This document shows, piece after piece, positions 13,526 through 37,356 of a stretch of 64,000 nucleotides of DNA (position 1 is the stretch's first letter; every line of letters begins with the position of its first letter). A program made the position numbers and the translations under genes. Where the stretch lies: assembly GCA_022747635.1 (NCBI GenBank), contig JAKTNV010000415.1, forward strand, positions 94,553 to 158,552, in the 5' to 3' direction. Source of the stretch: Hetaerina americana (Eukaryota > Arthropoda > Insecta > Odonata > Calopterygidae). A model generated the notes under the pieces. That model saw only the letters and a program-made list of their open reading frames with translations, was not told where the DNA came from and searched no databases.

Positions 13526-14002
13526 AAATTTCTACATTTGAATTGTTTACGTTTTCATTCGTGTTAAACCATTCTTGATTTTTACGACTTTGATCTTAGA
13601 ATGACGGTTGAATGGCATGTTGTTTTATTATGGACTAGAATTAAAACGTTATTATGGGCAATATCATACCCAGTTTATTTAGCCGCGTAAATAAAATTTC
13701 AGTCCCACGCAGTGGGATACTCCGGCCGGCCCGGCTCAAATTCGCAAATGGAGCAGAATGTTGCGGATTACCCTATATAAACCGACCACTCGATGGAAAC
13801 TATTTATATGTTAGGATAAGAATACGGGTATTGCGAGGAGACTGCGATGACTGTTTGTCGGCTATATCTGAGAAAAATCAATTAGGATATTTGGTCTTTG
13901 TGCATTGATCTGGCACATAAATACAATCTCAGCTTATGAATTAGTAATCGTAGTGGAGATAACTGCAAAAAACGGTTGCAAAAGCATGTGTAATCAAACT
14001 TA
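13526..14002. other. No gene recognised
   Basis: This mixed-composition stretch includes a short GC-rich block around 13,705-13,735 (cacgcagtgggatactccgg). The frame at 13,654-13,908 has no recognisable domain. Confidence 0.3.
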
Positions 14003-15308
14003 CATCTACAACGGCTGCGTCAGGATTTCCTATTTCCCGACCACTTGGAAGAGAGCGAGGATCATATGTCTCCCGAAGACGTCGAGGACGGAGGTGGGAC
14101 CCGGAGACTTCCGGCCCATTTCTCTACTCGACGGATTCGGGAAGATGTACGAGAGACTTCTGCTGGAGCCGATAGTAGGTTTCGTCCGTGAGGCTGACAT
14201 CCTCCCGGATGAGCAGTTCGGCTTCCGCGAGCGGCATTCCACGGTCCATCAGCTGGTGAGAGCCACGGACTTCATCACGGACGCCTTCAACAGGAAGATG
14301 TCGGTGGCAGGCGCATTTTTCGACGTCAGCAAGGCGTTTGACCGCGTCTGGCACCAGGCACTGCTGTTGAAGATGCGGAGACTCCACTTCCCGACGTGGA
14401 TCATCGAGGTGATCCGCTCCTACCTAAGAGACAGGACCTTCGTCGTTTCCTGGTCTGACTCGTTCTCTGGGGTGCACCGGATCTCCGCTGGTGTCCCCCA
14501 GGGTTCGGTTCTCGGGCCAGTATTATTCAACATCTTCTCCCATGACATTCCCAGGAGTCATGGGAGGCACGAGGTCCTGTCACTATACGCGGACGACGCG
14601 GCGCTCCTGTGCAGCTCCCGGCGAATATCTTTCGCCGTGGAGAGGCTGCAGATCGTCGTCGACGAGCTACTTTCGTGGTATCGTCGCTGGCGGTTTGCAG
14701 TCAATGCCGGGAAAACGAAGGCAATCGTCTTCCATACCGGCAGAGGAGCGCCGACAGAAGAGGAGCTGTCGGTGAATGGAGTCACCCTTCCGTGGGAATC
14801 CGAGGTTCTCTACCTCGGAGTGCTGATGGACCGGAAACTCCTTTGGAACGCCCAAGCGCGACGTGTCCGAGGGAAGGCCTTCGCGGCGCTTAACCGGCTT
14901 CGGCCGATTATTCGTCCGGGGGTCCTGAGCTCGGAAACGAAGCGTCGACTGTACCGAGCGTGCGTGTTGCCTGTCATCACGTACGCAGCGCCGGTATGGT
15001 CAGGAGTGCCGAAGTCTACCCTCGCTCTCATCCAAGTGGTGCAGAACTCTGCGCTACGGTGCATCTTGGGATGCGGGCGCTACGCCCGCGTGGAAGAGAT
15101 GCACCAGGACGGGAACATGGAACCTCTGAACGTCCTTCTTCCGGAGCTGTCTCGAAGATTCTTCGAGAGGGCTGCGGATTCAGACGTCGCCACCATCCGA
15201 CGCCTCGGAGAGATCCAGGTTTCAACGTGGGACCGCTATAAGCGCCCCATTGCGAGCATGGATCGCCAAGATGCCCTCCCAGCGAAGAAGAGGCCCAGGC
15301 TTCAGTAG
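14003..15308 (+). pseudogene. Jockey-like LINE ORF2, 5'-truncated (RT to C-terminus)
   Basis: An uninterrupted frame encodes about 435 residues of RT. In order it shows FPTTWKRARIICLPK, DFRPISLLDGFGKMYERLLL, EQFGFRERHSTVHQL, motif A AFFDVSKAFDRVW (about 14,311), motif B GVPQGSVLGPVLFN, motif C YADDAALL (about 14,585, catalytic DD kept) and the thumb LYLGVLMDRKLLW. No RNase H follows; the frame ends ALPAKKRPRLQ and stops at 15,306-15,308. This architecture (RT without RNase H, this thumb style) fits the Jockey clade. The endonuclease is lost by 5' truncation inside RT, so the copy cannot move. GC content is higher and codon use different from the AT-rich flanks, and the lack of stops suggests a fairly young insertion. 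Confidence 0.85.
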
Positions 15309-15431
15309 CAGGGATCGCCAGAACGCCGTGACAACGCAGAAGACGACGCCCTGCCTTAGAAGCCTAGGCGGCTTGAAAGGCAACACAGTGGAGCCCCGAC
15401 CGGAGTAACGGGGGTCCGTCCACGAGAATTG
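15309..15431 (+). other. Jockey-like 3' region or U1 upstream flank
   Basis: The 123 bp between the Jockey-like stop and U1 nucleotide 1 are GC-rich and include a small inverted repeat (agcctaggcggct at about 15,361). No poly(A) tail, target duplication or snRNA proximal sequence element is evident. It therefore cannot be decided where the LINE ends and U1 flank begins. Confidence 0.4.
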
Positions 15432-15459
15432 AAACTTACCTGGCGTAGGGGCTACCGTG
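15432..15459 (+). ncRNA. U1: U1 snRNA gene, 5' part (nt 1-28), split by an insertion
   Basis: The sequence begins aaacttacctggcgtagggg and continues ctaccgtg. It corresponds to the U1 5' end (AUACUUACCUG, which pairs with 5' splice sites) with one change at position 2 (T to A). After nt 28 the sequence switches to an R2-like retrotransposon, and U1 resumes at 15,947. The break lies at stem-loop I, whose loop (AUCACGAAG) binds U1-70K. The six bases that would read ATCACG are missing or replaced. The upstream 60 bp contain no recognisable snRNA promoter element. The interrupted gene cannot make U1 RNA. Confidence 0.88.
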
Positions 15460-15946
15460 CCGCGAAGGGGACAATATCCATATCGTGGATGTTACGGTCC
15501 CCTTCGAAAACCGGATGGCGGCTTTCCGAGTGGCACGGGCGGTAAAACTGGAAAAATACCGTGGGCTGGCCGAGAGCATTCGCGTCGCCCACGAGTACAA
15601 AGTTACTGTCCGCCTGGGTGCCATCATCGTTGGGGCCCTCGGGTCCTGGGATAGAAAAAATGATGCGGTTTTATCCCGACTCGGCATCCAGAAGGGCAGG
15701 GCTCGTGGGCTGAGCAGGAAAATGTGTTCGGCAGCCATCGCGGTATCAACAGATACATACCGGAAGCACATGAAGTTGCAGGACCGGTAGCGTGTAGTGC
15801 TATAGTGTAGTGTTTAAGGGACATGTAGGTTTCCTTTTATGTATTCATGGACTTGTAGGGACACATCCATTGCCCTTGGGACGTGGATAACTCCACCTGG
15901 AGGATAAATTTTGTTTTATGTACATGTCACTAATTATGTGAATAAA
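15460..15946 (+). mobile_element. R2-like (RLE) retrotransposon, 3' end, inserted in U1
   Basis: An open frame from the junction to the stop at 15,788-15,790 reads REGDNIHIVDVTVPFENR, ARAVKLEKYRGLAESI, AIIVGALGSWDRKNDAVL and KMCSAAIAVSTDTYRKH. This is the C-terminal half of the restriction-like endonuclease found in the R2/NeSL superclade, with the catalytic aspartate in VDVTVPFE and the downstream lysines of KLEKY. The PD motif, zinc knuckle and RT are removed by 5' truncation. A 3' untranslated stretch of 156 bp ends gtgaataaaa exactly where U1 resumes. The element has the same orientation as U1. It is related to, but a different family from, the R2-like copies at 19,985-27,371. A short CGAAGG microhomology is shared by U1 and the 5' end of the insert. 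Confidence 0.85.
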
Positions 15947-16074
15947 AAGGCGGTTCCCCCAGGACGAGGCTTACCCATTGCACTCCGGGTAGGCTGACCC
16001 CTGCGATTGCCCCAAATGTGGGTAACTCGGGCGCGTAATTTTTGGTAGTAGGGACTGCGTTCGCGCCGTCCCTT
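15947..16074 (+). ncRNA. U1: U1 snRNA gene, 3' part (from about nt 35)
   Basis: The sequence resumes aaggcggttcccccaggacg and contains ggcttacccattgcactccg, ctgacccctgcgattgcccc and aaatgtgggtaactcgggcg. The Sm site aatttttgg (16,037-16,045) and the final stem gactgcgttcgcgccgtccc follow. These are, in order, stem-loops I (3' side), II, III, the Sm site and stem-loop IV of U1. Joined to the 5' part, the RNA would be about 162 nt, close to the usual 164. The ggtagtagggactgcgttcg end is more like insect than vertebrate U1. Apart from the insertion there is little decay, so the interruption is probably recent. Confidence 0.92.
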
Positions 16075-18824: not shown

Positions 18825-19150
18825 ATGCCTTGTGATGATATTACATACATTTTCATTAATTTTTATATTTTTCCTGAATAGTTAAACAAATATCGCCAAA
18901 TTGTCACCTATCAACGGTAAAATTTGGAGGATATTTATTCAATTGAGCCTTGTGATGTTACAAACATTTTGATTAATTTTTACATTTTTCCCGAATATTT
19001 TCATCGCCAAATTGCCACCCTATAGTTTCAACGTATGGTAAAATTTGGCGATTAACTCAATTGAATCTCCTGAATGGCGCAACGGTTTGATTTTGATTTA
19101 TTTTTAAATTTTTCCTCAGTATTTTAACGAATACCACCAAATTATATATT
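18825..19150. repeat. Degenerate tandem repeat, about 125-bp unit, 2.5 copies
   Basis: Each unit has an opening ccttgtgatg or acggtttgat, then cattttgattaatttttaca, tttttcc.gaatatttt, cgccaaattg and a ggtaaaatttgg tract. The third unit is partial. Confidence 0.7.
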
Positions 19151-19189
19151 ATTTGTTTTTAGATAGCTTTTTGCTCTTCATTTTCAAGA

Positions 19190-19570
19190 TATTTTTGAGT
19201 ATTTTTTATCCTTTGATTTCATCTTGCTATGCCTGTTCTTCGTATTAAAGATTTTTTCAGTGTTTTTGTTTATAGTTTTATTTTAATTTTTGGTGCTTAT
19301 GAATATTTGTTCTTATTTATGATTCTTTGATTCATTTTGCTGTTTCTTTTCTTCATTTTTAAGTAATATTTGAATATTTTCGATTCTTTGATATCATTTT
19401 GCTGTGTTTTTCATTTTTAAGATTTTTTCAGTATTTTTCTTAGTGGTTTAGATTATGGTTTTATTTTAGATGCTTTTGAATATGTTCTTCGGTAGTTTTT
19501 GGTGTCTGTTGGACACAATTTTAAAGATATTTTTGAGTGTGTTTCTGTTTTTAATTTTTAAGATTTGTTT
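19190..19570. repeat. T-rich degenerate direct repeat of about 175 bp
   Basis: The motif order tgagtattttttatcctttg, tttcatcttgct, aagattttttcagtg.tttt, gttttattttaa and tatttgttc recurs from about 19,366 in diverged form. The tract is more than two-thirds T plus A and has no gene. Confidence 0.55.
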
Positions 19571-19865
19571 TGATAGAGTTTTAGTAGGGTCTTTTGATTT
19601 TAATTATTTTTTTTTTATAATTTCGATTTTGAACTAATACATTTTGATCATTTCGATTTTGAACTGACTGCTTGGCGCATTCTATTTTCATTTCAGTTTT
19701 TATATCTTTTTTGAGTAAATATTAATATTTGTAATATTTGATATCTTTTCATGTCATATGTCACTTGCACTTTTCATTGAGGACTGTTTTTGTGTTTTAT
19801 ATTTTCTTATTCATTTTCATAATTTGTATGTCAAATTGCAATTTTTAAAATTTGCTTCTGTGATC

Positions 19866-19985
19866 CGGCTTTGCTTTGATTATCTTTAGAAAAATCAGTG
19901 GTCCTGAAAAGGGCCGTTAGCTCCATTCACAAAACCGTGGAGGGTTTGGCAAATGCGCATAAAAATTGAAAACACCGCTGCTGCA
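19866..19985 (-). pseudogene. Degenerate histone H4 3' end with stem-loop
   Basis: On the minus strand GGCCCTTTTCAGGACC (19,915-19,900) fits the histone 3' stem-loop consensus GGYYYUUHUHARRRCC. It is followed by ACTGATTTTTCTAAAGATAA, a purine-rich downstream-element-like tract. Just upstream, caaaccctccacggttttg translates QTLHGF, matching the H4 C-terminus RTLYGFGG, and a few more matches extend back. The stop codon is lost and the spacing to the stem-loop is short, so it is a decayed remnant. R2-like copy 1 begins where the H4 similarity ends. The stem-loop is clear; the H4 assignment is tentative. Confidence 0.5.
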
Positions 19986-22711
19986 ATGAGCCAGGACCGA
20001 AGCATCCAGTTTCCACCGCCACCATCGATCAGCTCCACCGACTGGCCAGCACATCCGGCCAGTCGTGGGAGGAGTTTGAGGTCATGGTGAAGGATCTGGT
20101 GGCCACCATCCAGGCGGAGAGGAAGAGGGAGGCCAAAGCTGTAGACGGAGGGGAAGCTGCTCGGCCACAGAACGTCGTGCACAGACAACCACCAAGACTC
20201 AGACAAGTAGTTGACTACGACGTGAAAAAGGCATCAGACCTACAGAAGCTCTTCAGGAGTCATCCCAGGAGGGCAGTGAAGAGCATCCTGTCCGATAAGT
20301 CACCCTATTGCGACATTCCCGTGGAGGAGGTGGAAAAGCATTTCCGCCTAGTCTACGGGAGTGTCGGGATGGGGGTCTTGGAGGACGAGGGTGACGACTC
20401 GGTCTACCGTCGCACGACGGAGACCGAGAAGAAGCTGCTCCTAGAAAGGATCACTCCTGAAGAAGTGACACGACGAATGTCTAGAACAAAGAACATTGCC
20501 CCAGGCCTTACCTACGGCGACCTGAGGGTGGTCGATAGACATGGACGAATTCTTTCCTTTATCTTTGACAGATGCCTGAAGGAGGCCAGAACACCGGCCG
20601 CGTGGAAGACCTCTTGGACTGTCCTCCTGCACAAAGGGGGGGACCGCCAGGACATCGGCAACTGGAGGCCCATAGCGCTTGGCAACACAATCGCCAAGCT
20701 GTATGCCGGGGTGCTTGCTGACCGCATACTATCTTGGGCGGTAAGCGGGAAGAAGATGCACCCGGCATAGAAGGGCTTCCGGGAGTTCGAGGGGTGCCAC
20801 GAGCACAATTGTCGACGAAATGAGACACAGACGTTCCCGAATTGCACTGGCTTGGCTTGATCTATGGAACACGTTCAGGTCCATCCCGCCCCAACACCTC
20901 CAGAAGACCTTGCGGAGGAGATGAGGAGGACCATGGAGGAGTTGCAGAAGGGCTCCACGGTCGTGAAGACGGCCAGCAGCGACACTGGTGTCATTGACAT
21001 CTGCGCCGGTGTCAAGCAGGGGTGCCCGTTATCACCGACCATTTTCAATCTGGGAATGGAGCTGGTGATATGGGCAGTCGCTGGCGAGGCAGGCAAGTGC
21101 GGCGTCGTCATCCAGGGGCAGAACATCGCCATCCTGGCCTACGTGGACGACTTGGTGCTGGTGGCCCGGGACCAGGAGCACCTGCAGTACCTGCTGAACA
21201 TTGCAGGAGAAGTGGCGACCGCTGCAGGTCTACAGTTCAAGCCAAGCAAGTGCGCAATGCTGGACCTCAACTTTTCAACAAACCAGCCCGTTCAGCCGTC
21301 CCAACTCACCATCCAGGGGGTGGCCATTCCCAGCCTGAAGGACGGCAAAGCGCACCGGTACCTCGGGGTTCCTTTCGGGTTCCACGTGGACCAGACCCCC
21401 GAGGAGGACTCGGTGTGCTTGGGCGAGGACGTCAAGAAGATCAACGAGTCACTCCTCGCCCCGTGGCAGAAGATCGCCGCCACCAACATCTTCCTTCTGC
21501 CCAGGCTGGAATTCATCTTGCGGGCTGGTAATGTTAAAAAGAAAAACTTGATCGACATCGACAAGAGGCTGAAGGCCTGCGCCAAGGGCTGACTCCATTT
21601 ACCCAAAAGGGTATTGCCTGAGATGGTCTTCATTGGCCATCAACATGGCGGCGCAGGTCTTCTCCCTCTTTCTGACTTGACTGACATATTGACCATCGTG
21701 CAGGGATATCGACTCCTCCATTCCCGTGACCCCAACGTGAGAGTGCTCCCCTATGGTCGCCTGAAGGAGGTAGTGCGGAGGAAGCTGAGGAGGCCGCCAA
21801 CCACCGGTGATCTCACAGATTAACTTAGTGGTAGTCTGCGGGATGACTTTGGAAGGGAAAGCGGCGACTTCAGTTCCCTCTTCACGCAGGTTCGCTCCGC
21901 GTCACACCGTATCGCCGGGCACATAGGCTTGAGCTGGAGATGGTCGGACGAGCTAAGGGAGATGCAGATTTCGTTTAGCGACATGAATGACGGGGCTGAA
22001 GACCGCCCCCCCTTCATCAGGGTTCCTCCGAAGGCCGTAAGGCAACTGACGGGTGCCCTGAAGATCGCGGTGCGGCGCTACTACCTGAACAAGGTAAGCG
22101 CCATGCTCGATCAAGGGACAGTTATTCGTGCCTCGGCGAAATCTGAAGCCTCTAATCACTTCCTGGCAGGAGGGAGGTACACCAGGTTTTGTGATTGGAG
22201 GTTCATCTTTAGGGCTCGGCTTGATCTACTCCCGCTCAATGCCTGTCGCCGTTGGGAAACCAATGGGGACAAGCGGTGTTGACGATGCGGCCACGCAGAA
22301 GAGACCCTGCCCCATGTCATTAACCACTGTAAAATGCATTCAAGGACGTGGCAGCGTAGACATAACGCTGTCCAAGACCGACTACACAAGGCTCTGATTG
22401 GACGCCGGGGAAAAGGTGACGATGAAATCAGAGTCAACAGACAAGTACCTGGCACCGACTCGACTCTTAGACCAGACCTGGTTATAACTAACTAGGCCGA
22501 CAAGACTGTGACATTGACAGACGTAGCAGTTCCATTCGAAAATACGGACGACGCACTGCTGGCAGCCAGGACCGCAAAGGAGGAGAAGTATGCCGCCCTG
22601 GCAGAGACCATCCGCCAGCAGGGAAGCCGAGCATCAGTCGCCGCCATCGTCGTGGGAAGCCTGGGGACTTGGGACCCGAAGAACGATTCTGTCCTGAAAC
22701 CCTGGGTCTAA
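19985..22711 (+). pseudogene. R2-like element copy 1: RT, zinc knuckle and RLE
   Basis: One reading frame holds for 2.7 kb with point defects. After IDQLHRLASTSGQSWEEFEV it shows YCDIPVEEVEKHF, LTYGDLRVVDRHGRILSFIF, TVLLHKGGDRQDIGNWRPIA, motif A LAWLDLWNTFRSIP, motif B KQGCPLSPTIFNLGME, motif C YVDDLVLVA and the thumb HRYLGVPFGFHVD. A zinc knuckle CRRCGHAEETLPHVINHC follows, then an RLE with RPDLV (PD) and TDVAVPFEN (D). Defects are a TAG at 20,768 (CAG in copy 2), 17- and 16-nt deletions near 20,807 and 20,905 that cancel in frame, TGA 21,590, TAA 21,821, TGA 22,280, TAG 22,493 and a frameshift near 22,695. The N-terminal zinc fingers are missing. This order (RT, CCHC, RLE) defines the R2/NeSL superclade. 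Confidence 0.9.
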
Positions 22712-23291
22712 CTCGATGATACTGCACCACCATGCGGCGGCTAATGGTGAGCGACGTTATCCGATGGTCGCGGGACTGCTACGTTGAGCACATCACGGGT
22801 CACCGACAATATGAGGATGGCTCCGGAGGCTGAAATAAAGACAAAAGTGAAGTCGTGTTAAATCATTTCCCCTCTTTCCTTTTTCCATACTTCTCTGTAA
22901 AACCTTTTTCTGTCCCCTTTCTTATGAGCCATGGTGTATAAATGGACAAAAGCCATAGTTTATAAACGGCCCCCCAAGTGTAAACCCCCGTCCCCCACTG
23001 TGAAAAACAATATAAACTTTACTTAAAGACAAAAATGCGAGAAGCATAAAATAAATATAAAAATTCTCCGAGAGAAGGGCAAAGACTTGTTTCCCAGCTC
23101 CCTCATTTGGAGGGAGCCGGACTTGTATTAAATCAACCACATATGTAAATTTGAAAACTAATGCTTAAACTGTATTTCTAAGAATTTAAATAAACAAATT
23201 TTATCTGTTCTTAACAGCTTAATCCCCTTCACTTCTTGTTTTTAGCCCTTTAAATTTCAAATGAACAGATCTACCGCATTTGGATTTTTTT
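22712..23291 (+). other. 3' untranslated region of R2-like copy 1
   Basis: After the frameshifted C-terminus (MRRLMVSDVIRWSRDCYVEH, then ITGHRQYEDG in the next frame) comes ggctgaaataaagac, then tatgagccatggtgtataaa and a tail ending ctaccgcatttggatttttt. Copy 2 carries the parallel series at 24,890-25,388, which fixes the 3' end to within a few bases. Confidence 0.75.
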
Positions 23292-24889
23292 GCCAGGAGA
23301 AGCTGTGGCTCGACCGACTGGCCAGCACATCCAGCCAGTCATGGGAGGAGTTTGAGGTCGTGGTGGAGGAACTGGTGGCCACCATCCAGGCAGAAAGGAA
23401 GAGGTAGGCCAAAGCAGCGGATGGAGGGGAAGCTCCTCGGCCACGAAACGTCATGCACAGACAACCTAGGCGATGCAGACAAGTAGCTGACTACAACGTG
23501 AAAAGGGCGTCGGACCTACAGAAACTCTTCAGGAGTCATCCCAGGAGGGCAGTGGAGATCATCCTGTCCGATAAGTCACCCTATTGTGACATTCCCATGG
23601 AGGAGATGGAAAAGCTTCTCCGCCAAGTCTACGGGAATGTCGGGATGGGGGGCTGCTCCTTGAAAGGATTACTCCTGAGGAAGTGACGCGACGAATGTCT
23701 AGAACCATGAACACCGCCCCAGGCCCCGATGGCCTCACCTACGGCGACCTGAGGGTGGTCGACAGACATGGACGAATTCTTTCTTTTATCTTCGACAGAT
23801 GCCTGAAGGAGGCCAGAACACTGGCCGCGTGGAAGACCTCTCGGACTATCTTCCTGCAAAAAGGTGGGGGCTGCCTGGACATCGGCAACTAGAGGCCCAT
23901 AGCGCTTGGCAACACCATCGCCAAGCTGTACGCCAGGGTGCTTGCTGACCGCATACTATCTTGGGCGGTCAGCGGGAAGAAGATGCACCCGGCACAGAAG
24001 GGCTTCCAGGAGTTCAAGGGGTGCCACGAGCACAACTTCACCCTTCAGGCAGCTGTCAACGAGATTAGACGCAGACGTTCCCACATCACATTGGCTTGGC
24101 TTGACCTTCGGAATGCATTCGGGTCCATCCCGCAGACACCTCCAGAAGACCTTGCGGAGGATGGACTTGCCTGAGGAGATGAGGAGGACCGTGGAGGGAT
24201 TGCAGAAGGGCTCCACGGTCGTGAAGACGGCCAGCGGCGACACCGGCATCATTGACATCTGCGCCGGATTCAAGCAGGGGTGCCCGTTATACCGACCATT
24301 TTCAATCTGGGAATGGAGCAGGTGATATGGGCGGTCGCTGGCGAGGCAGGCAAGTTCGGCGTCATCGTCCAGGGAAAGAACATCGCCGTCCTGGCGTACG
24401 CGGACGACTTGGTGCTGGTGGCCCGGGACAAGGAGCACCTGCAGCGCCTGCTGAACATCGCAGGAGAAGAGGTTACCGCTGCAGGTCTACAGTTCAAGCC
24501 AAGCAAGTGTGCAATGCTGGACCTCAACTTTTCAACAAACCAGCCCGTTCAGCCGTCCTAACTCACCATCCAGGGAGTGGCCATTCCCAGCCTGAAGGAC
24601 GGCGAAGCGCACCGGTACCTCGGGGTTCCTTTCGGGTTCCACGTGGACCAGACCCCCGAGGAGGACCTGGTGCACTTGGGCGAGGACGTCAATAAAACTG
24701 ACGAGTCACTCCTCGCCCTGTGGCAGAAGATCGCCGCGACCAACATCTTCCTTCTGCTTAGGCTGGAATTCCTCTTGCGGGCTGGCAACGTTAAGAAGAA
24801 GCACCTGACCGACATAGACAAGAGGCTGAAGGCCTGCGCAAAGGGCTGACTCCATTTGCCCAAAAGGGCATCGCCTGAGATGGTCTTGA
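23292..24889 (+). pseudogene. R2-like element copy 2: RT region, RLE deleted
   Basis: It begins almost at the same internal point as copy 1 (CTGTGGCTCGACCGACTGGC) and follows it closely. It keeps features lost in copy 1: APGPDGLTYGDL, AQKGFQEFKGCHEHNFTLQA and YADDLVLVA. Its defects are TAG 23,404 (GAG in copy 1), a deletion of about 60 nt near 23,650 that shifts frame, TAG 23,890 (TGG in copy 1), a 2-nt loss near 24,131, a frameshift near 24,285 and TAA 24,558 (CAA in copy 1). The TGA after CAKG at 24,847 is shared with copy 1. About 1.2 kb equivalent to 21,627-22,805 of copy 1 is missing, which removes the zinc knuckle and whole endonuclease. The copy is non-autonomous. Confidence 0.88.
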
Positions 24890-25388
24890 GATGGACAAAT
24901 ACAGTATGAAGACGGCTCCAGAGGCTGAAATGAAAAGACTAAAGTGAAGTTGTGTTAAAACATTCCCTTACTCTTTCCATATTTCTTCTTTGTAATTCCT
25001 TTTTCTGTCCCCTTTCTCTTTATGTTCCTATGAGCCATGGTGTATGAATGGCCAAGCCGTGGTGTATAAACGGCCTCCCCAAATTGTGTGATTCCCCCCA
25101 ACAAAAAACAGAAAACTTTAATAACATTTATCAGTGGGGAGCGAATGGACCTATATTAATTCCCCGGAAAGGGGCAAAAAACTTGTGCTTTGGCTCCCTC
25201 CCTCGGAGGATGCCGGGTGATGTTTAAAATCAACAAAATGTTATATATTAGTTTTATTAAGGAGTGAAACTATCTGTAACATTTTAAATAAAACACTTTA
25301 ATCTGTTCTTTTTAGCTTAATCACCTTCGCTTCTTGTTTTCCGCCCGCCAAATTTGAATTTTTAATTGAACAGTGCTACCATTTTTTG
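24890..25388 (+). other. 3' untranslated region of R2-like copy 2
   Basis: It resumes after the deletion with tatgaagacggctccagagg and runs parallel to copy 1, including tatgagccatggtgtatgaa, ttaatctgttctttttagct and a terminus near gctaccattttttgaacc. Copy 3 starts immediately after. Confidence 0.75.
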
Positions 25389-26440
25389 AACCATTCTTGC
25401 CTTCTCCCCGACCAACGTTAAGCCTTCCCAGGACACTCCCAGAGGGAAGGAGCAACAGGATACTAGGGGTCGGCTCTTCCCAGTAGCCCCTATTTGCCCC
25501 CCCCCGGTTGCCCCACAGCAAACTGCCTCTTCAAGGCGGACCTTGGGACCGCCCGCCCCCTCAGGGCCCCCCGGTCGCTCACGGACCGGGTCCCACGCCC
25601 ACTCGGGGCGATAACCTCCCCACCCCCGGTGCACCGTCGAGTCCCCTCAGGACCGGTAGGCTGAGCACCGGACCTTCCCCGGTGCCTTTCCAGGTCCCCT
25701 CCGGACCGGTAGCTTGAGTACCGAGGCACCCTGGCCCCCGGGGGCAACCTCCGTCTATCCCGTACGATCGGCGCAGAGCGATTGATTCTAACAGGGCGCG
25801 GTTTCGTTTTCGGCCGCGCCGCCGGTCAACCGACGTAATGGCACGCTTCAGCTCCGGCCGGTATTTGTGGAAGACCTCGTCTTCCACATAACCGTTTATT
25901 CAAATCCCCCGATAATTTAAATGTCCCCCCGACCCACTTGTACGGGCCGAGAAGCGGGTTGAGCGCCTTCAGTGCCATCCCTAGGCGGCCACCTGGGTTT
26001 CATTCAGGTGCACGCCACGCGCAACATTTTAATTTTTAAACTATTCCGTTTCGCGGTCTTTCAGACCGCTGAAAAGCCCGCCGTCGCCCCCTTGGCCTTC
26101 AGCATTTATATCTTTTTGAATTTTTGGTGTCCTTAAAAGAACAATTTTTCAATACATATTCCACGGTCCTTCAGACCGCGGAATATCAGCCTCAAGGTCC
26201 CGTTGCACATTGTCAACGCCCTCCCATGCCCCCAAGTCCTCCCCATAAAAACGGGGGGCCGGGGCCGTGGGGGGGGGGAGAAAAGCACCCACGCGTGCTA
26301 GTTTCTCCACCCCCCACTCCTCCTCTCGTACTTTGCGGAGGAGGAAAGTCGAGGCGTCAGAGCCCGACTCTTCACCTCCCCATACACCAGTGGGCGACGC
26401 GTCCGAATGCGTATTAACGCGCCGCCCGAGGAAATTCATA
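25389..26440 (+). other. GC-rich, hairpin-rich 5' region of R2-like copy 3
   Basis: This 1-kb C/G-rich block lies directly after the 3' end of copy 2 and upstream of R2-type zinc fingers, so it is read as the 5' untranslated region. It contains perfect or near-perfect hairpins at 25,866-25,888 (10-bp stem, loop ctc), 26,053-26,069 (7-bp stem) and 26,158-26,184 (11-bp stem with one mismatch). A stem ccttccc/gggaagg lies at about 25,424-25,450, and a direct repeat with ggaccggtag lies at about 25,640-25,728. Open frames here are proline-rich by composition and are not convincing genes. Confidence 0.6.
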
Positions 26441-27262
26441 CACGATGGCCCCCGTTACTTCTTCTCCATCCGGCGTCCGAAAGCCGTCCCTTGAGACCTC
26501 CCCGCTTTCGGATGTTACCTATACCCCCCAATTCCCGTTCTTCTTCCCCTCTCTCCCTCGACGACTTCACGACGCCTCCGGATTCTTCTTCGTCCAGACG
26601 TCCGGCGCTGGATTTCCCCCCCCCCCGACTAACCCCGCCCCCCAAACGACTGATAGGATCTCGACGCCCCTCCTGACCGGCACTGCGATGTCGGCCAGGA
26701 GGGTCGAAAATCAACTTGTGGTTTACTTTCCCGTGGCGGAAATGACCTCCACCAAAGTGGGATGCAGCATGTCCTTCCGCGCTGCGGATAAGTCTCCTCC
26801 GGCACGTGATGAAGCAGCACGGCCACCGACTCACGTCGGTGAACGTCTGCTCCATCTGCGGCGGGACTCTCGGCCGCAAGCCGTCCACTCATCCCTGCCT
26901 CAAAGGAGGGATCCGTAAGGCGGTGGACGGAGGTTTGGCATTCTCGCATCGGTGCGGGACATGCGATTTCGCATGCACTGACCGTCGCGGGTTTGCGAAC
27001 CACATGGTGACCTACAAAAGACCTCACCCTTGATTGCTCCCCTTCAGGAGGCAATCGAGGAGACAGATGCACGACGCCGCTCAACGTGACCGAGGCGGAA
27101 CCTTCCGTTCCAGACGAAGCAGTAGACGCTCCGGCCGAACACCTCCTTCGGGGCAGCCTACCGAGGTCGGTGACACCAAGGATACTGGGTCACCGCCGCC
27201 CGAGGATGCAGCAACGTCGCCGCCACCAGCTCCCGACGCAGCAGAAGGAGCAGACGCTTTTG
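26441..27262 (+). pseudogene. R2-like copy 3: N-terminal zinc-finger region
   Basis: In the frame of 26,445 the protein reads RRVENQLVVYFPVAEMTST and SMSFRAADKS. A frameshift near 26,795 leads into RHVMKQHGHRLTSVNVCSIC, GGTLGRKPSTHPC, then HRCGTCDFACTDRRGFANHM and a stop at 27,031. These are a finger-like F-x5-LLRHVMKQH segment, a C-x2-C...H..C segment, and a C-x2-C-x12-H finger. The arrangement resembles the N-terminus of R2 proteins with several zinc fingers that bind target DNA. The first finger lacks one cysteine and the last has an irregular final histidine. Downstream coding is frameshifted and not recognisable. Confidence 0.65.
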
Positions 27263-27371
27263 TTTCCATGTGGACCAGACTCCCGAGGAGGACCTGCTGC
27301 GCTTGGCCGAGGACATCAGGAAGATCGACGAGTCACTCCTCGCCCCGTTATAGAAGATCGCCACGACGAAT
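27263..27371 (+). pseudogene. R2-like copy 3: RT-thumb remnant after an internal deletion
   Basis: tttccatgtggaccagactc onwards matches copy 1 at 21,378-21,485 (FHVDQTPEED...DESLLAPW region). The N-terminal zinc-finger part is therefore joined directly to the RT thumb, skipping the whole RT core. The match ends at cgacgaat (27,371), where satellite sequence starts. Confidence 0.85.
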
Positions 27372-28655
27372 AGCCTAGTCTTCGGGACCAGAATAATGCG
27401 CAACTGCGATGCGGGACCAGAATAAAGCGCCACCGCAATTAGGGACTAGAAGAAAGCACGTAGGACCACAATAAAGCCTGCGGGACCAGAATCAATCCCC
27501 ACCGTAAAGCATTACAGAAGAACTAAAATCTGCTGCTGAGAGAAAATCAATGCTGAAGAGATTACGTTTTTCGAAAAAATGGGAAATAAAAACAATGAAA
27601 ATAATCCGGTTCCCGTCGTTCGTTTCGGATAGTTACCGTCTTTCAGAATTTATATTATGCAATTGAAACCGCCACTACTAAGCGGGACCAGAATAAAGCA
27701 TGTGGGACCAGAGTTAAGCATGCGGGACCAGAATAAAGCGCCACCACACAGCGGGACCAGAAACAATCCCACCGTAAAGCATTACAGAAGAAATAAAATC
27801 TGCTGCTGACAGAAAATCAATACTGAAGAGAAAACGTTTTTCGAAAAAATGGCAAATACAAACAATAAAAATAATCCGGTTCCCGTCGTTCGGTTCCGAT
27901 GATTCCTGTCATTCACAATTTATCTTGTGCAATTGAAAGCGCCACCGAAAAGCGGGACCAGAAAACAGCATGTGAGACAAGAATAAAGCATGCGGGACCA
28001 GAATAAATCCCCACCGCAATGCATTGCTGAAGAATAATAATAATATAATAATTTGCTGCCGAGAGAACATCATTGCTGAAGAGAAAATTTTTATTATTAA
28101 TTTAATAAAACTAATCATGTTACAGTCGTTTGATTCCGATAATTCCCGTCGTTCAACACTAATCTTGTGCAATTGAAAGCGCCACCAATGCGGGAACAGA
28201 ATAAAGCATGTGGGACCAGAATAAAGCATGCGGGACCAGAATAAGGTGCCACCTCAATGCGGGACCAGAATAAGCATGTGGGACTAGAATACAGCATGCG
28301 GGACCAAAACATAGAGCCACCAATGCGGTCTAGTCCCGCGACGCGGGACCAGAAAAAAGCATATGGGTCCAGAATAGAGAATGCGGAACCAGAATAAACC
28401 CCGCTGCATTACTGGACCAGAAGAAACCATGGGGGCCCAGAATAAAGCGCCACCGCAATGCGGGACGTAAATCAATCCCCACCGCAATGCATTGCTGAAG
28501 AAATATAACCTGCTGCTGAGAGAAAATCATGGCTGAAGATGAAATGTTTTTCGAAAAAATGGGAAAAATCAACTAATAAGATAACCCAGTTCCCGTCGTT
28601 CGGTTCCGTTTATTCCCGTCATTCTTAATTTATATTATTGAATGTGCAACCAATG
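27372..28655. repeat. Satellite edge: 20-bp units mixed with a 180-190 bp unit
   Basis: Four copies of a longer unit lie at about 27,493-27,680, 27,764-27,949, 28,005-28,187 and 28,472-28,653. Each starts caatccccaccg.aa.gcat and has ctgctgctgagagaaaatca, cgtttttcgaaaaaatggga and ttcccgtcgttcggttccga, ending caattgaaagcgccacc. They alternate with short runs of the 20-bp unit. The gcgccacc end joins agcgggaccag, and the same gcgcca tract appears in degenerate form inside the main array. The copies are diverged, as expected at an array margin. Confidence 0.85.
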
Positions 28656-31600
28656 CGGGACCAGAATAAAGCATGTGGGACAGAATATAGTGTCATCGCA
28701 ATGTGGGACCAGAATAAAGCTTGTGGGACCAAAATAAAGCATGTGATACCAGAATAAAGCATGTGGGACCAGAATAAAACATGTAGGACCAGAATAAAAC
28801 ATGCAGGACCAGAATAAAACATGCAGGACCAGAATTAAGCGCCACCGATAACTGGGACCAGAATAGAGCATGTGGGACCAGAATCTAGTGGCATCGCAAT
28901 GCGGGACCAGAATAAAGCATGTACGATCAGAATAAAGCATTAGGCACCAGAATAAAGCATATAAGAACAGTATAAAGCATGTGGGACCAGAATAAAGCAC
29001 ATGAGACAAGAATAAATCGCCACGGCAAACTGGGACCAGAATAAAGCATGCGAAACCAGAATAAAGCATGTGGGACCAGAATAAAGCATGTGGGACAAGA
29101 ATAACGCATGTGGGACCAGAATCTTGTGGAATCGCAATGCGGGACCAAAATAAAAATGTGGGACCAGAATAAAGCATGCTGAACCAGAATAAAGCTTATG
29201 GGACCAGAATCTAGTGGCATCGCAATGCGGGACCAGAATAAAATTGTGGGACCAGAATAAAGCATGTGGGACCAGAATAAAGCATGCTAAACCAGAAAAA
29301 AGCATGTACGATGTGAATTAAGCATGTGGTACCAGAATAAAGAATATAAAACCAGTATAAAGCATGTGGGACAAGAATAAAGCATGCGGGACCAGAATTA
29401 AGCGCCACGGCAAACTGGGACCAGAATAGAGCCTGCGGGATCAGAATAAAGCATATGGGACCAGAATCTAGTGGCATCGCAATGCGGGACCTGAATAAAA
29501 ATGTGGGACCAGAATAAAGCATGTGGGACCAGAATAAAGCATGTGGGACCAGATTCTAGTGGCATCGCAATGCGGGACCTGAATAAAAATGTGGGACCAG
29601 AATACAGCATGTGGGACCAGAATAAAGCATATACGATCTGAATAAAGCATGTGGCACCAGAATAAAAGATATAAGACCAGTATAAGGCATGTGGGACCAG
29701 AATAAAGCATGTTGGACCAGAATAAAGCGCCACGACCAACTGGGACCAGAATAAAGCATGCGGGACCAGAATAAAGCATGTGGGACCAGAATAAAGCATG
29801 TTGGACCAGAATAAAGCATGTGGGACCAGAATCTAGTGGCAACGCAATGCGGGACCAGAATAAAAATGTGGGACCAGAATAAAGCATGTGGGACCAGAAT
29901 AAAGCACGCTGGACCAGAATAAAGCATGTACGATCTGAATAAAGCATGTGGCACTAGAATAAAGCATATAAGACCAGTATAAAGCATGTGGGACCAGAAT
30001 GAAGCGCCACGGCAAACTGGGACCAGAATAGAGCATGTGTGACCAGAATAAAGCATGTAGGACCAGAATAAAGCATGTGGGACCAGAATCTAGTGGCATC
30101 GCAATGCGGGACCAGAATAAAAATGTGGGGCCAGAATAAAGCATGTAGGACCAGAATAAAGCATGCTGGACCAGAATAAAGCATATGGGACCAGTATAAA
30201 GCATGCGGGACCTGAATAAAGCGCCTGGGCAAACTGGGACCAGAATAGAGCATGCGGGACCAGTATAAAGCATGTGGGACCAGAACAAAACATGTGGGAC
30301 CAGAATGAAGCATGTGGGACCAGAATAAATCATCCTGGACCAGAATAATAACTCATATGGGACCAGAATAAAGCATGTGGGACCAGAATAGAGCATGCGG
30401 GACCACTATAAAGCATGTGGGACCAGAATAAAGCATGTGGGACCAGAATAAAGCATGTGGGACCAGAATCTCGTGGCATCGCAATGCGGGACCAGAATAA
30501 AAATGTGGGACCAGAATAAAGCATGTGGGACATGAATAAAGCATGCTGGAAAAGAATAAAGCATGTACGATCTGAATAAAGCATGTGGCACCAGAATAAA
30601 GCATATATGACCTGTCTAAAGAATGTGGGACCAGAATAAAGCATGTGGGACCCGAATAAAGCATGCGGGACCTGAATAAAGCGCCACGGCAAACTGGGAC
30701 CATAATAGAGCATGCGGGACCAGTATAAAGCATGTTGGACCAGAAAAAAGCATGTGGGACCAGACTAAAGCATGTGGGACCAGTATAAAGCATGCGGGAC
30801 CTGAATAAAGCGCCACGGCAAACTGGGACAAGAATAGAGCATACGGGACCAGTTTAAAGCATGTGGGACCAGAATAAAGCATGTGGGACCAGAATCTCGT
30901 GGCATCGCAATGCGGGACCAGGATAAAAATGTGGGACCAGAATAAAGCATGTGAGACCAGAATAAAGCATGCTGGACCAGAATAAAGCATGTACGACCTG
31001 AATAAAGCATGTGGCACCAGAATAAAGTATATAAGACCAGTATAAAGCATGTGGGACCAGAATACAGCATGTGGGACCAGAATAAAGCATGTGGGACCAA
31101 AATAAAGCATGCAGGACCAGAATTAAGCGCCACCGAAAACTGGGATTAGGATAGAGCATGTGGGGCCAGAATAAAGCATGTGGGACAAGAATGAAGCATG
31201 TGGGACCAGAATAAAGCATGTACGATCAGAATAAAGCATATTGCACCAGAATAAAGCATATAAGACCAGTATAAAGCATGTGGGACAAATATAAAGCATG
31301 CTGGTCCAGAATAAAGCCCTTAACACGAGAATCTAGTGGCATCGCAATGCCGGACCAGAATAAAAATGTGGGACCAGAATAAAGCGCAACGGTAAACTGG
31401 GACCAGAATAAAGCATGCGGGACCAGAGTAAAGCATGTGGGACCAGAATAAAGCATGCTGGACCAGAATAAAGCCCTAGGGACGAGAATCTAGTGGCATC
31501 GCAATGCCGGACCAGAATAAAAATGTGGGACCAGAATAAAGCATGTGGGACCAGAAAAAAGTATAATGGACCAGAGTAAAGCATGTACGATCTGAATAAA

Positions 31601-31972
31601 GCATGTGGTACCAGAATAAAGCATATAAGACCAGTATAAAGAATTTTGGGACCAGAATAAAATGTGGGACCAGAATAAAGCATGTGGGACCAGAATAAAG
31701 CATGCTGGACCAGAATTAAGCATAGGGAACCAGAATCTAGTGGCATCGCAATGCGGGACCAGGATAAAAATGTGGGACTAGAATAAAGCATGTGGGACCA
31801 GAATAAAGCATGCTGGACCAGAATAAAGCATGTGCGATCTGAATAAAGCATGTGGAACCAGAATAAAGCGTGTGGGACCAGAATCTAGTGGCATCGCAAT
31901 GTGAGACCAGAATAAAAATGTGGGACCAGAATAAAGCATGTGGGACCAGAATAAAACATGTACGATCTGAAT
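28656..31972. repeat. 20-bp satellite array, left block
   Basis: Tandem units have the consensus gcatgtgggaccagaataaa. Recurrent variants keep a fixed order: gcatgctgg..., gcatgtacgatctgaataaa, gcatgtggcacc..., gcatataagaccagtataaa. Two spacer blocks recur, one with ctagtggcatcgcaatgcgg and one with gcgccacggcaaactgggac. Every unit's plus strand carries AATAAA. The reverse strand lacks stops in all three frames, which produces long spurious frames. 30,262-31,792 is nearly identical to 58,394-59,904. Confidence 0.95.
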
Positions 31973-33654: not shown

Positions 33655-36600
33655 ATGTGTTCCATTCTGCAGTGGAACTGCAATAGTTTTTATCGGCACA
33701 AGGAGGAGCTGGCCATTTTAATCCAAGATTTTAAACCCTCTTGTATTTGTCTCCAAGAGACCCATTTTAAGGCTGAAGATAAGGGTATTTTGAAGGGGTT
33801 CACTGTTTTTAGAACGGATGACCTAAGTGGCCAACGAGCCCAAGGGGGAGTAGCAGTTGCGGCCCGTGAGGCCCTTTACACCTCGCGAGTCCAACTGAAC
33901 TCTCCATTCCAGGCCGTCGCTGTCACGGTGCACACCCCTGAGAGGATGACGTTATGCAACGTGTATCTGCCAGAGGGTGCACCGGTGACCCGCCTGAACC
34001 TTGAAGCCCTTGTCCACCAGCTTCCTCAGCCGTTCATTTTGATGGGAGATTTTAATGCCCATGATCCTCTCTGGGGAGGTCCAGAAACCCAAAGCAATAG
34101 GAGAGGTCGAATTTTATCCAACTTTATTGAGGATTTTAACCTGTTTTTATTAAATAGCGGCGAAAAAACCCGGTTTAACAGCTTCAATGGGGAATTCTCA
34201 GCAATAGATCTTTGTCTATGCTCGAGAAGTCTAGCCCCAAAGCTGAAAATGTCCACCCAGAACGATCTCTGTGGGAGTGACCATTTTCCTCTTCTACTCG
34301 TTAAAGAAGACTCTTCGCCCACCATTTCAAAACCTCCGGAAAAGTGGCGTATTAACCGTGCGGACTGGCCACTTTTCAAGCGTACGTTTACATATAAACA
34401 CGACGCAAGTTTCGACGCGTTGCACAACGTCGATAAACTAAGTTCAACGCTGTTGGCGGCAGCTACCAAAAGTATCCCTCGTACGTCCGGGAACATTAAT
34501 CGAGCTCCTGTCCCTTGGTGGAACGGGGAATGCGACCGGGCGATTCGGGCGAGGAAAAAAGCATTGAATATTTTTAGAAAATATCCCACGGCAACTAATC
34601 TGGCATCGTACCGCCGCCTGAGAGCGCGAGCTCGAAGGGCCGTGAAGGAGGCCAAGAGGGCTTCCTGGATAGAATACGTCTCTACCATCAACCATCGCAC
34701 GCCACTTGGTCAGGTATGGGACAAAGTGAAGAAAATCTCCGGGTCCAAGGGCTCATTTGTCATCTCGCCATTGCTTGTTGCTGGCCGGGTGGTTAATTCA
34801 CCTGCCGAAATAAGCAACATATTTGCCAGTCAGTTCGCGGCCAAGAGCAGTGACGAGGGCTATGCCGCGGACTTTGCGAACCTGAAGAGGCGATGCGAGA
34901 GAGTCCCTCTCAATTTCGGTGCAGGTCCTACAAGCGAATATTACAATGAGCCTTTCACGTCCTGGGAGCTTAAATCCGCCATCGAAGTCTCCCATTACAC
35001 CTCGCCAGGGGCGGACGAAATCCACAACGCATTTCTCCGGAACATTCCGGAAACTGCGATTGGGGAGGTCCTAAATACCCTCAACCAACTTTGGAACGAG
35101 GGCAGTTTTCCAAATGCCTGGCGAGAGTCCATCGTGATACCAATCCCAAAACAGGGCAAGGACAAAAATGACCCGAACAACTACCGTCCCATATCTCTCA
35201 CCAGCTGCCTGTGCAAGGTGATGGAACGGATGGTAAACCGACGTCTCATGTGGTGCTTGGAGAGTCGACATCTGCTCTCCGACGCTCAGTGCGGCTTTCG
35301 GCGTGGCAGGTCCACGACAGACCATCTGGTTCGCACTGAGAACTTCATCCAGGAAGCCTTTCTCCACCGTCAACACGTCATAGCAGTCTTTTTCGACCTG
35401 GAGAAGGCCTATGATAGTGTGTGGCGATGGAGAATCCTTAACACGTTGCACAAGTGGGGATTTAGAGGCAACATGGCCCTATTTATCAGAAATTTTTTAA
35501 CTAACCGCCTTTTTAAAGTAAGGACTGGGAAGCACTTATCCCGATCTTTTACACAGGAGAACGGGGTACCCCAGGGTTCAGTACTGAGCGTGACGTTATT
35601 TGCCATCGCCATCAACGACGTGGTGGAATGCATCAATGCCCCGGTGATGGCATCGCTCTATGTGGACGACTTAGCCATATTTTGCCGGTCGACACGACTG
35701 CCAAACGCTTCCAGGCAAGCCCAGGTGACTCTAAACAAACTGGGAGAGTGGTCGCTAAAGAACGGATTTCGTTTCTCCATGGAGAAAACGAAATGCGTGC
35801 ACTTTCACCGTCTTCGCGGTTACCACGTTACCCCGACCCTAACCCTGTTGGGTAGGATTCTTTCATTTGTGGAGTCCGTCCGCTTTCTCGGCATGATCCT
35901 GGACCAAAAGCTGAACTGGCGGGAGCATATCCGCGTGTTACGCGAGAGGTGTCGCCAAACCCTCAACGTTTTAAAGTTTTTAACTCACTCCACTTTGGGA
36001 GCAGACCGCACCACCGTGCTTTTATTGTACAGAGGCTTGGTGCGATCCAAACTGGACTATGGTTCCATAGTGTATTCCTCAGCACGAGAGTCTTACTTGA
36101 GACCACTCACATGTGTCCACAATGCTGGGATACGGTTGGCCACCGGGGCATTTAGAACAAGCCCAGTCCCAAGCTTACTTGCAGACGCAGGGGAGCCTCC
36201 GTTGGAAACCCGCAGGATGATTTTAATGGGCAACTATGCCTGTAAAATTTTGTCAGAGACAATCCACCCTTGTTTTAACATAGTTTTTAACCAACGGTTT
36301 TTAGACTTATTTAACAGGCGGAGAAGGGCAACTAGGCCCTTTGCCGTTCGTTTTAATGATTTTATTAATGAGGTAAATTTTACATTTCCTCAAATATGCC
36401 CCGTCTCCTATGCTAAGTATCCGCCTTGGTTAACACCAATGCCGGATATTAAACTCATTGCCAGTGCACGCCGCAAAGCCAAGACGACCGATTCCGAATA
36501 CCAGCAGCTCTTTAGTGCCGTCCTCAGCTCAATTTCTGACTTCGTCCCAGTCTACACCGACGGGTCAAAGTCAGAATCTGCATGTACCTATGCGGTCGTG

Positions 36601-37356
36601 TCCCACTACCATGGAGTCGTGAGGAAAAAACTGCACACTTCTTGCAGCATTTTCACAGCCGAGCTGTCAGCCATAAGGACGGCCCTAGGAGAAATAAAAG
36701 AAAGCAATGGCTCTTTCCTCATCTGCACCGACTCGTTGAGCGCCCTAAAATCTTTATCGGTCTTTGCACCTGTGCACCCGATAGTCCAGGAGATCCATTA
36801 TACCCTGTTGTCCCTTCAGAGAAAGGGGAACAGGGTCTCCTTTATATGGACTCCTGGTCACGTCGGCATAAGAGGCAACGAAAAAGCTGACCAGGCAGCG
36901 AAGGATGCCCTTCGACAACCCGAGACCGACTCCACCTTGGTTCCAATGGAGGATGTGAAGGCCGCCTTAGGGAACTTGGTCCTGCATCAGTGGAAGGAGA
37001 CTTGGCAGTCTCTGCAAAATAATAAACTCAGGGCAATAAAACCGGTCGTTTCCCCATGGTCCTCTTCCATCCGGAGCATTCGGAGGGAAGAGGTCATGAT
37101 TACGCGCATGAGAATAGGACACTCTGCACTCACTCATTCGTACCTCTTTGCGCAGGTAAAAGAACAGCCCCGCTGCAATGAGTGCCTCCAACCCCTGACG
37201 ATAAAACATATCCTGACGGAATGTTAAACATACGAAAGGGCCAGAGACATGTTGAAGATAAGGGGAGACTTAAGAAATATTTTAGGGGATGACTCTGGGT
37301 CTATAAACCGAGTCTTAAGTTTTTTAAGGTCAACCGGTTTAATGGGGCAGCTTTAG
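33655..37356 (+). pseudogene. I-like LINE ORF2: endonuclease, RT, RNase H; one late stop
   Basis: From ATG 33,655 the frame runs 1,190 codons to TAA at 37,225 and then continues in frame 42 more codons to TAG at 37,354, so the TAA is a premature stop. The APE endonuclease (about 1-220) keeps N8, E35, GDFN at 131-134 and SDH at 208-210. RT (about 480-790) has motif A FFDLEKAYD (D581), motif B NGVPQGSVLS and motif C YVDD (671-672). RNase H (about 960-1,090) has the full acidic set: D969 in YTDGS, E1003 in TAELSA, D1026 in CTDSLSA and D1079 in EKADQAA. A C-terminal knuckle CNECLQPLTIKHILTEC ends right at the stop. All catalytic sites survive, so the copy is young; the lost tail (TYERARDMLKIRGDLRN onwards) may or may not matter. 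Confidence 0.92.

Follow-up and report, generated by a model that had tools for sequence, protein, structure and literature searches.

In the 64-kb stretch of Hetaerina americana DNA analysed here (hereafter, the window), a U1 snRNA gene is split by a fragment of a non-LTR retrotransposon of the restriction-like endonuclease (RLE) type. On the plus strand, positions 15432–16074 read in order as U1 nt 1–28, approximately 487 foreign bases, and the remainder of U1 from approximately nt 35. Insert and U1 gene share one orientation, as is usual for such RLE elements. A second non-LTR element, a LINE that we take to be of the Jockey type from its motifs, adjoins the start of the same gene. The features of the locus are as follows:

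13996–14003, plus strand: AAACTTAC, the left-hand one of the two 8-bp repeats that flank the LINE; if this is a target-site duplication, it equals U1 nt 1–8
14004–15431, plus strand: 5'-truncated LINE, presumably Jockey-type, with reverse transcriptase and C-terminal part and a short 3' UTR, without a long poly-A (from RVT_1, ORF, and sequence)
15432–15459, plus strand: U1 snRNA gene, nt 1–28, AAACTTACCTGGCGTAGGGGCTACCGTG; its first eight bases form the right-hand AAACTTAC repeat (from sequence)
15460–15946, plus strand: 5'-truncated RLE-type non-LTR retrotransposon, its end uncertain by two bases within the A run at 15944–15948 (from sequence and homology)
15461–15790, plus strand: C-terminal part of the restriction-like endonuclease domain (109 codons), and stop (from ORF and the alignment of relatives)
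15791–15946, plus strand: 3' UTR of the RLE element, ending in TGTGAATAAAA (from sequence)
15947–16074, plus strand: U1 snRNA gene from approximately nt 35 to the 3' end, with the rest of stem-loop I, stem-loops II–IV, and the Sm site (from Rfam and alignment)

Elsewhere in the window, positions 28653–31972 and 37621–64000 consist of a long satellite built on a 20-bp basic unit (GGACCAGAATAAAGCATGTG); it also shows longer periods (e.g. 337, 365, and 417) and yields long repetitive ORFs. Between the two satellite blocks, an open frame of 1190 aa (33655–37227) belongs to a LINE of the APE type and encodes its endonuclease, RT, and RNase H domains.

The Rfam scan of the 64-kb window returned U1 (RF00003; positions 15916–16074, plus strand) at 93.7 bits, well above the family's cut-off (69.5), and this is the sole RNA match at the gathering level. 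Approximately the first 34 positions of the RF00003 model were aligned onto retrotransposon sequence rather than onto U1. Besides the split gene, the window holds no further significant match to U1, and the exact sequence AAGGCGGTTCCCC occurs in it once, at 15947. On the minus strand, the histone 3' UTR stem-loop family matches positions 19875–19920 with 24.4 bits (E-value = 0.0028), short of its cut-off of 34.

When the two halves of the gene were joined, with the gap represented as N, 130 of 156 aligned bases were identical to human U1 and 124 of 156 to fly U1 (both reference sequences were entered by hand). One departure from U1 is an A in place of U at nt 2. Fifty of the 51 consensus pairs of U1 are canonical in the split gene, and seven pairs differ from those of human U1 on both sides. 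On these figures, we read the split U1 as a real gene that was under selection until recently, and not as an old pseudogene. Both the identity to human U1 and the pairing uphold the original prediction that the remaining U1 sequence is nearly undamaged.

Frame 3 of the insert is open from 15461 to 15787 (109 codons) and is closed by a stop at 15788–15790. The frame begins a few residues past the position of the PD motif in related proteins, and the encoded endonuclease fragment contains VDVTVPFENR...KLEKY. A Pfam search with this fragment gave nothing above cut-off, the only entry being Pcc1 (E-value = 0.19, below its own cut-off). The 3' UTR of the insert shows no unusual fold (z = −0.26), and no second copy of the insert was found within the 64-kb window.

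At the 5' junction, U1 stops at CCGTG (nt 28). At the 3' junction, the AAAAA run at 15944–15948 can be assigned either to the insert or to U1, and therefore six to eight U1 bases are missing (beginning with nt 29 and ending with nt 34, 35, or 36). The insert bases beside the 5' junction, CGCGAAGGGG, resemble U1 nt 31–40; because they read in frame (R-E-G) and align with the related proteins, we assign them, with some doubt, to the element rather than to U1. R2 elements are known for target-primed reverse transcription (TPRT), for truncation at the 5' end, and for small alterations of the target. The precise 3' end, the 5' truncation, and the small change to the target are all compatible with TPRT in this single copy; a constant 3' end would take several copies to demonstrate. 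The original description of a 5'-truncated RLE-type element inserted in stem-loop I in the orientation of the gene is supported. The precise 3' junction that it reported is clean as well, with U1 resuming at approximately nt 35 and the AAAAA run shareable between the two sides.

The affinity of the insert was examined through its endonuclease fragment. In a phmmer comparison, the fragment matched three R2 endonuclease chains in the PDB, with E-values of 1.5e-5 to 2e-4 and scores of at most 28.3 bits. A protein search with a joined query matched 28 proteins among 569 candidates; the scored part of that query consisted of the insert fragment and approximately 70 residues of a second RLE family in the window (elem2, described below), and the list of 28 proteins is thus partly selected by elem2. 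Compared alone in blastp, the insert fragment matches all 28 of these proteins at 28–54 per cent identity (often 45–54 per cent), with E-values of 2e-24 to 4e-8 that refer to a database of those 28 proteins only. Scoring on the words of the fragment only left two unnamed proteins of 224 candidates (48–49 per cent identity, 69–72 bits), and a protein search with the fragment alone gave 23 candidates, none at an E-value of 0.001. Viral contigs searched with the fragment and with alignment A1, and contigs of prokaryote-only genomes searched with alignment A1, yielded nothing useful; a degenerate U1 pattern had no matches in viral contigs. In the predicted protein P0001 of Macrochelys suwanniensis, the RLE domain is repeated in tandem, with four copies that are nearly identical; this may reflect how tandem 3' ends were annotated or assembled.

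The 28 matched proteins come from 12 host species that are named and from others that are not; four of the named ones (Pelodiscus sinensis, Ladona fulva, Drosophila yakuba, and Solenopsis invicta) occur in the Utopia host table of PMC4640811. Judging from host and likeness, the matched proteins would be the Utopia elements of that paper. In the RLE tree (31 rows and 106 columns, with no reference NeSL, R4, HERO, or CRE protein among the rows), the insert and the Ladona fulva protein P0005 (locus J437_LFUL017008) fall outside a cluster of 25 rows that contains elem2 and whose support is 85/97 (not starred). Measured along the tree, P0005 is the relative nearest to the insert. Constraining the insert and P0005 to group together was not rejected (approximately unbiased [AU] test; P-value = 0.345), and constraining these two to group together with the 25-row cluster improved on the original tree by 2.55 log units (P-value = 0.574). 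An arrangement in which the insert and R2 form one side of the tree, with a support of 94/57, is neither shown nor rejected.

The 106 columns of the tree do not settle the clade of the insert; by identity, NeSL/Utopia appears to be the nearest group, and the lineage of the insert is probably near NeSL/Utopia. The label ‘R2-like’ in the original prediction holds only in the broad sense: the fragment is closer to NeSL/Utopia-type proteins (up to 54 per cent identity) than to the solved R2 chains with their low scores, and the insert lies in U1 and not at the 28S rRNA gene site of R2. Within the R2 clade, passages of PMC5035012 list R8, R9, and R2NS as exceptions to the 28S site, and passages of PMC13188248 name the R2 Myb domain as a hallmark. 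The insert, truncated inside its endonuclease domain, lacks the RT domain and the N-terminal part in which zinc fingers and a Myb domain would lie. Utopia, of the NeSL clade, resembles the insert in its RLE domain (approximately 50 per cent identity to proteins from Utopia hosts), in its snRNA gene site, and in its precise 3' junction. It differs in its target, which is U2 rather than U1 with sites that are not clearly alike, and the tree does not put the insert within that group.

The second RLE family, elem2, is itself of NeSL/Utopia type and is present in the window as two broken copies and one fragment (19970–25430 and 27264–27370). The two copies (approximately 20.0–23.2 kb and 23.3–25.4 kb) are 88 per cent alike over 1.2 kb, and the third piece measures 107 bp. 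Given 48 per cent identity over 67 residues between the first elem2 copy and the insert, and no significant DNA match between the two, we rejected elem2 as the family of the U1 insert. Behind both elem2 copies lies a U2-like 21-mer (U2 nt 37–57, from a U2 reference entered by hand), with two mismatches at 23202 and four at 25300; at up to five mismatches, this U2 segment occurs at these two positions only in the 64-kb window. When the U2-like stretch is taken as a whole, 0 and 15 of 500 shuffles equal its scores. A continuation of the likeness past U2 nt 57–58 was rejected, since 87 and 224 of 500 shuffles reach the same scores. The copies remain alike for approximately 50 bases past the U2-like stretch, and because this likeness goes on where that to U2 stops, the stretch may be part of elem2's own end. 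An Rfam scan of positions 19000–28600 at an E-value of 0.5 did not list U2. Our reading is that elem2 is of the Utopia type and keeps a remnant of its U2 site.

Since the nearest relatives of the insert look Utopia-type, a U2-targeting element of that type might have inserted off-target in U1 through a likeness of the two sites. In register, however, the best of the comparisons at U1 nt 34–36 matches 9 of 35 bases of the U2 site, which 64 of 127 U1 positions equal or exceed, and in three narrower frames 42, 66, and 21 of the 127 positions score at least as high. With 21–66 of 127 U1 positions as good across the four frames, a motif common to the U1 and U2 target sites was rejected. Because the U1 site is without clear likeness to the U2 site, we consider such off-target use very improbable.

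The LINE upstream of U1 has an RVT_1 match at 1.9e-35 within an ORF at 13872–15308 (stop at 15306–15308), and its frame between the repeats starts at IYNGC. The two copies of AAACTTAC, at 13996–14003 and 15432–15439 (the latter being U1 nt 1–8), coincide precisely with the two ends of the LINE, and both have the A at U1 nt 2. Over the 41 × 27 allowed positions, a repeat of at least eight bases arose by chance in 22 of 1000 draws, and the repeat alone was rejected as proof of a duplication; with the ends fixed to 5 × 3 positions, a frame chosen after the match had been seen, none of 5000 draws gave such a repeat. We read the LINE as a 5'-truncated insertion with an 8-bp target duplication at the start of U1, and the true 5' flank of the gene would therefore lie upstream of 13996. 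This suggests that the same U1 copy was also struck by an element of a different kind. A single snRNA gene has thus received two different non-LTR elements within a span of about 30 of its bases; the original prediction had mentioned neither this LINE (14004–15431) nor the elem2 family ending in the U2-like 21-mer.

The 3' end of the LINE adjoins U1 exactly at nt 1, as it would if the U1 sequence were a retrocopied or dispersed unit, such as a Jockey–U1 template-switch chimera or a U1-derived repeat, that was later hit by the RLE element or carried it along. SINEs with snRNA-derived heads have been described. A template switch does not account well for AAACTTAC standing exactly at both ends of the LINE with the same departure at U1 nt 2 in both copies, and the best repeat between the matching flanks of the chimera model is six bases. 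The lack of poly-A after U1, the intact U1 structure with its compensated changes, and the lack of another significant U1 match in the 64-kb window point the other way. We therefore regard this origin as improbable and retain the reading of a U1 gene in place that received two insertions.

We propose that a 5'-truncated RLE element, probably from near NeSL/Utopia, entered stem-loop I of this gene via TPRT. The bottom strand would have been nicked at U1 nt 34–36, where the element was then attached by its 3' end. A cut of the top strand approximately 6–8 bases upstream would have led to the loss of those U1 bases, and reverse transcription may have halted inside the endonuclease domain, leaving the element truncated at its 5' end. 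For Utopia, passages of PMC4640811 describe precise 3' boundaries, variable 5' borders, and arthropod families without target-site duplication; an upper cut located upstream of the lower one is thought to delete the bases between (PMC4640811).

Does the family target U1 genes? From a single copy, the answer is a matter of judgement and not of computed odds, and we place it just short of an even chance. The two U1 parts stand in order with 6–8 bases missing, 50 of 51 pairs are kept, and the 109-codon frame is open to its natural stop; additionally, the insert has the orientation of the gene, and its likely kin insert in small RNA genes. On the other side stand the single copy, the Jockey-type LINE in the same gene, and the TE-rich surroundings. 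Narrowly ahead of chance, the leading explanation for the site is that the family targets U1, much as its likely kin aim at U2 and other small RNA genes. In the passages of PMC4640811 that concern their targets, families of the NeSL/Utopia lineage have their insertion sites in genes for U2, spliced leaders, and tRNAs.

An RLE family of loose or no specificity may instead have landed by chance, through TPRT, in a U1 gene within a TE-rich region. The second, unrelated LINE counts against U1 targeting because it suggests that untargeted insertions reach the same U1 copy. Because RLE elements are dense locally (elem2, within 64 kb), a chance RLE hit on some U1 of the genome is not remote. A chance landing would also agree with the U1 site, which does not clearly resemble the target that related elements use in U2. 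U1 genes, however, are a tiny part of any genome, the group to which the element appears to belong is known for small-RNA-gene targets, and the insert follows the orientation of the gene. Non-specific families of R2 (PMC5035012) and weakly specific families of Utopia (PMC4640811) exist according to passages of these papers. Overall, we judge a chance landing to be only slightly less probable than U1 targeting.

Among transposons of snRNA genes, the pertinent passages of PMC4640811 report only Keno and Utopia (U2), Dada-U1 (U1), and Dada-U6 (U6). Keno, like the insert, is a non-LTR retrotransposon in an snRNA gene but has an APE-like endonuclease and lies in U2 (PMC4640811). Dada-U1A_DR and Dada-U1B_DR are, like the insert, mobile elements in U1 snRNA genes, but they are DDE DNA transposons, described in passages of PMC3706591 at a fixed site in U1 genes of zebrafish; because their proposed duplications are GCGAAT/GCGAAC, that site is another one than the site of the insert. 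The titles and abstract openings that we searched, a scope outside which most subscription papers, preprints, and Repbase fall, named no U1-targeting non-LTR element.

Taken further, the targeting reading would make the insert a member of an undescribed RLE lineage near NeSL/Utopia, with the U1-70K-binding loop as its fixed target and with snRNA genes divided between Utopia (U2) and the new lineage (U1); we hold this extended version tentatively, at somewhat less than an even chance. A chance insertion would be ordinary nested TE damage to an snRNA gene. If the family does target U1, it would be the first non-LTR U1 target that literature searches would have met, it would imply a shift of target between snRNA genes among related elements, and it would add a site to those used as references for RLE retrotransposons, a group whose choice of site is of current interest.
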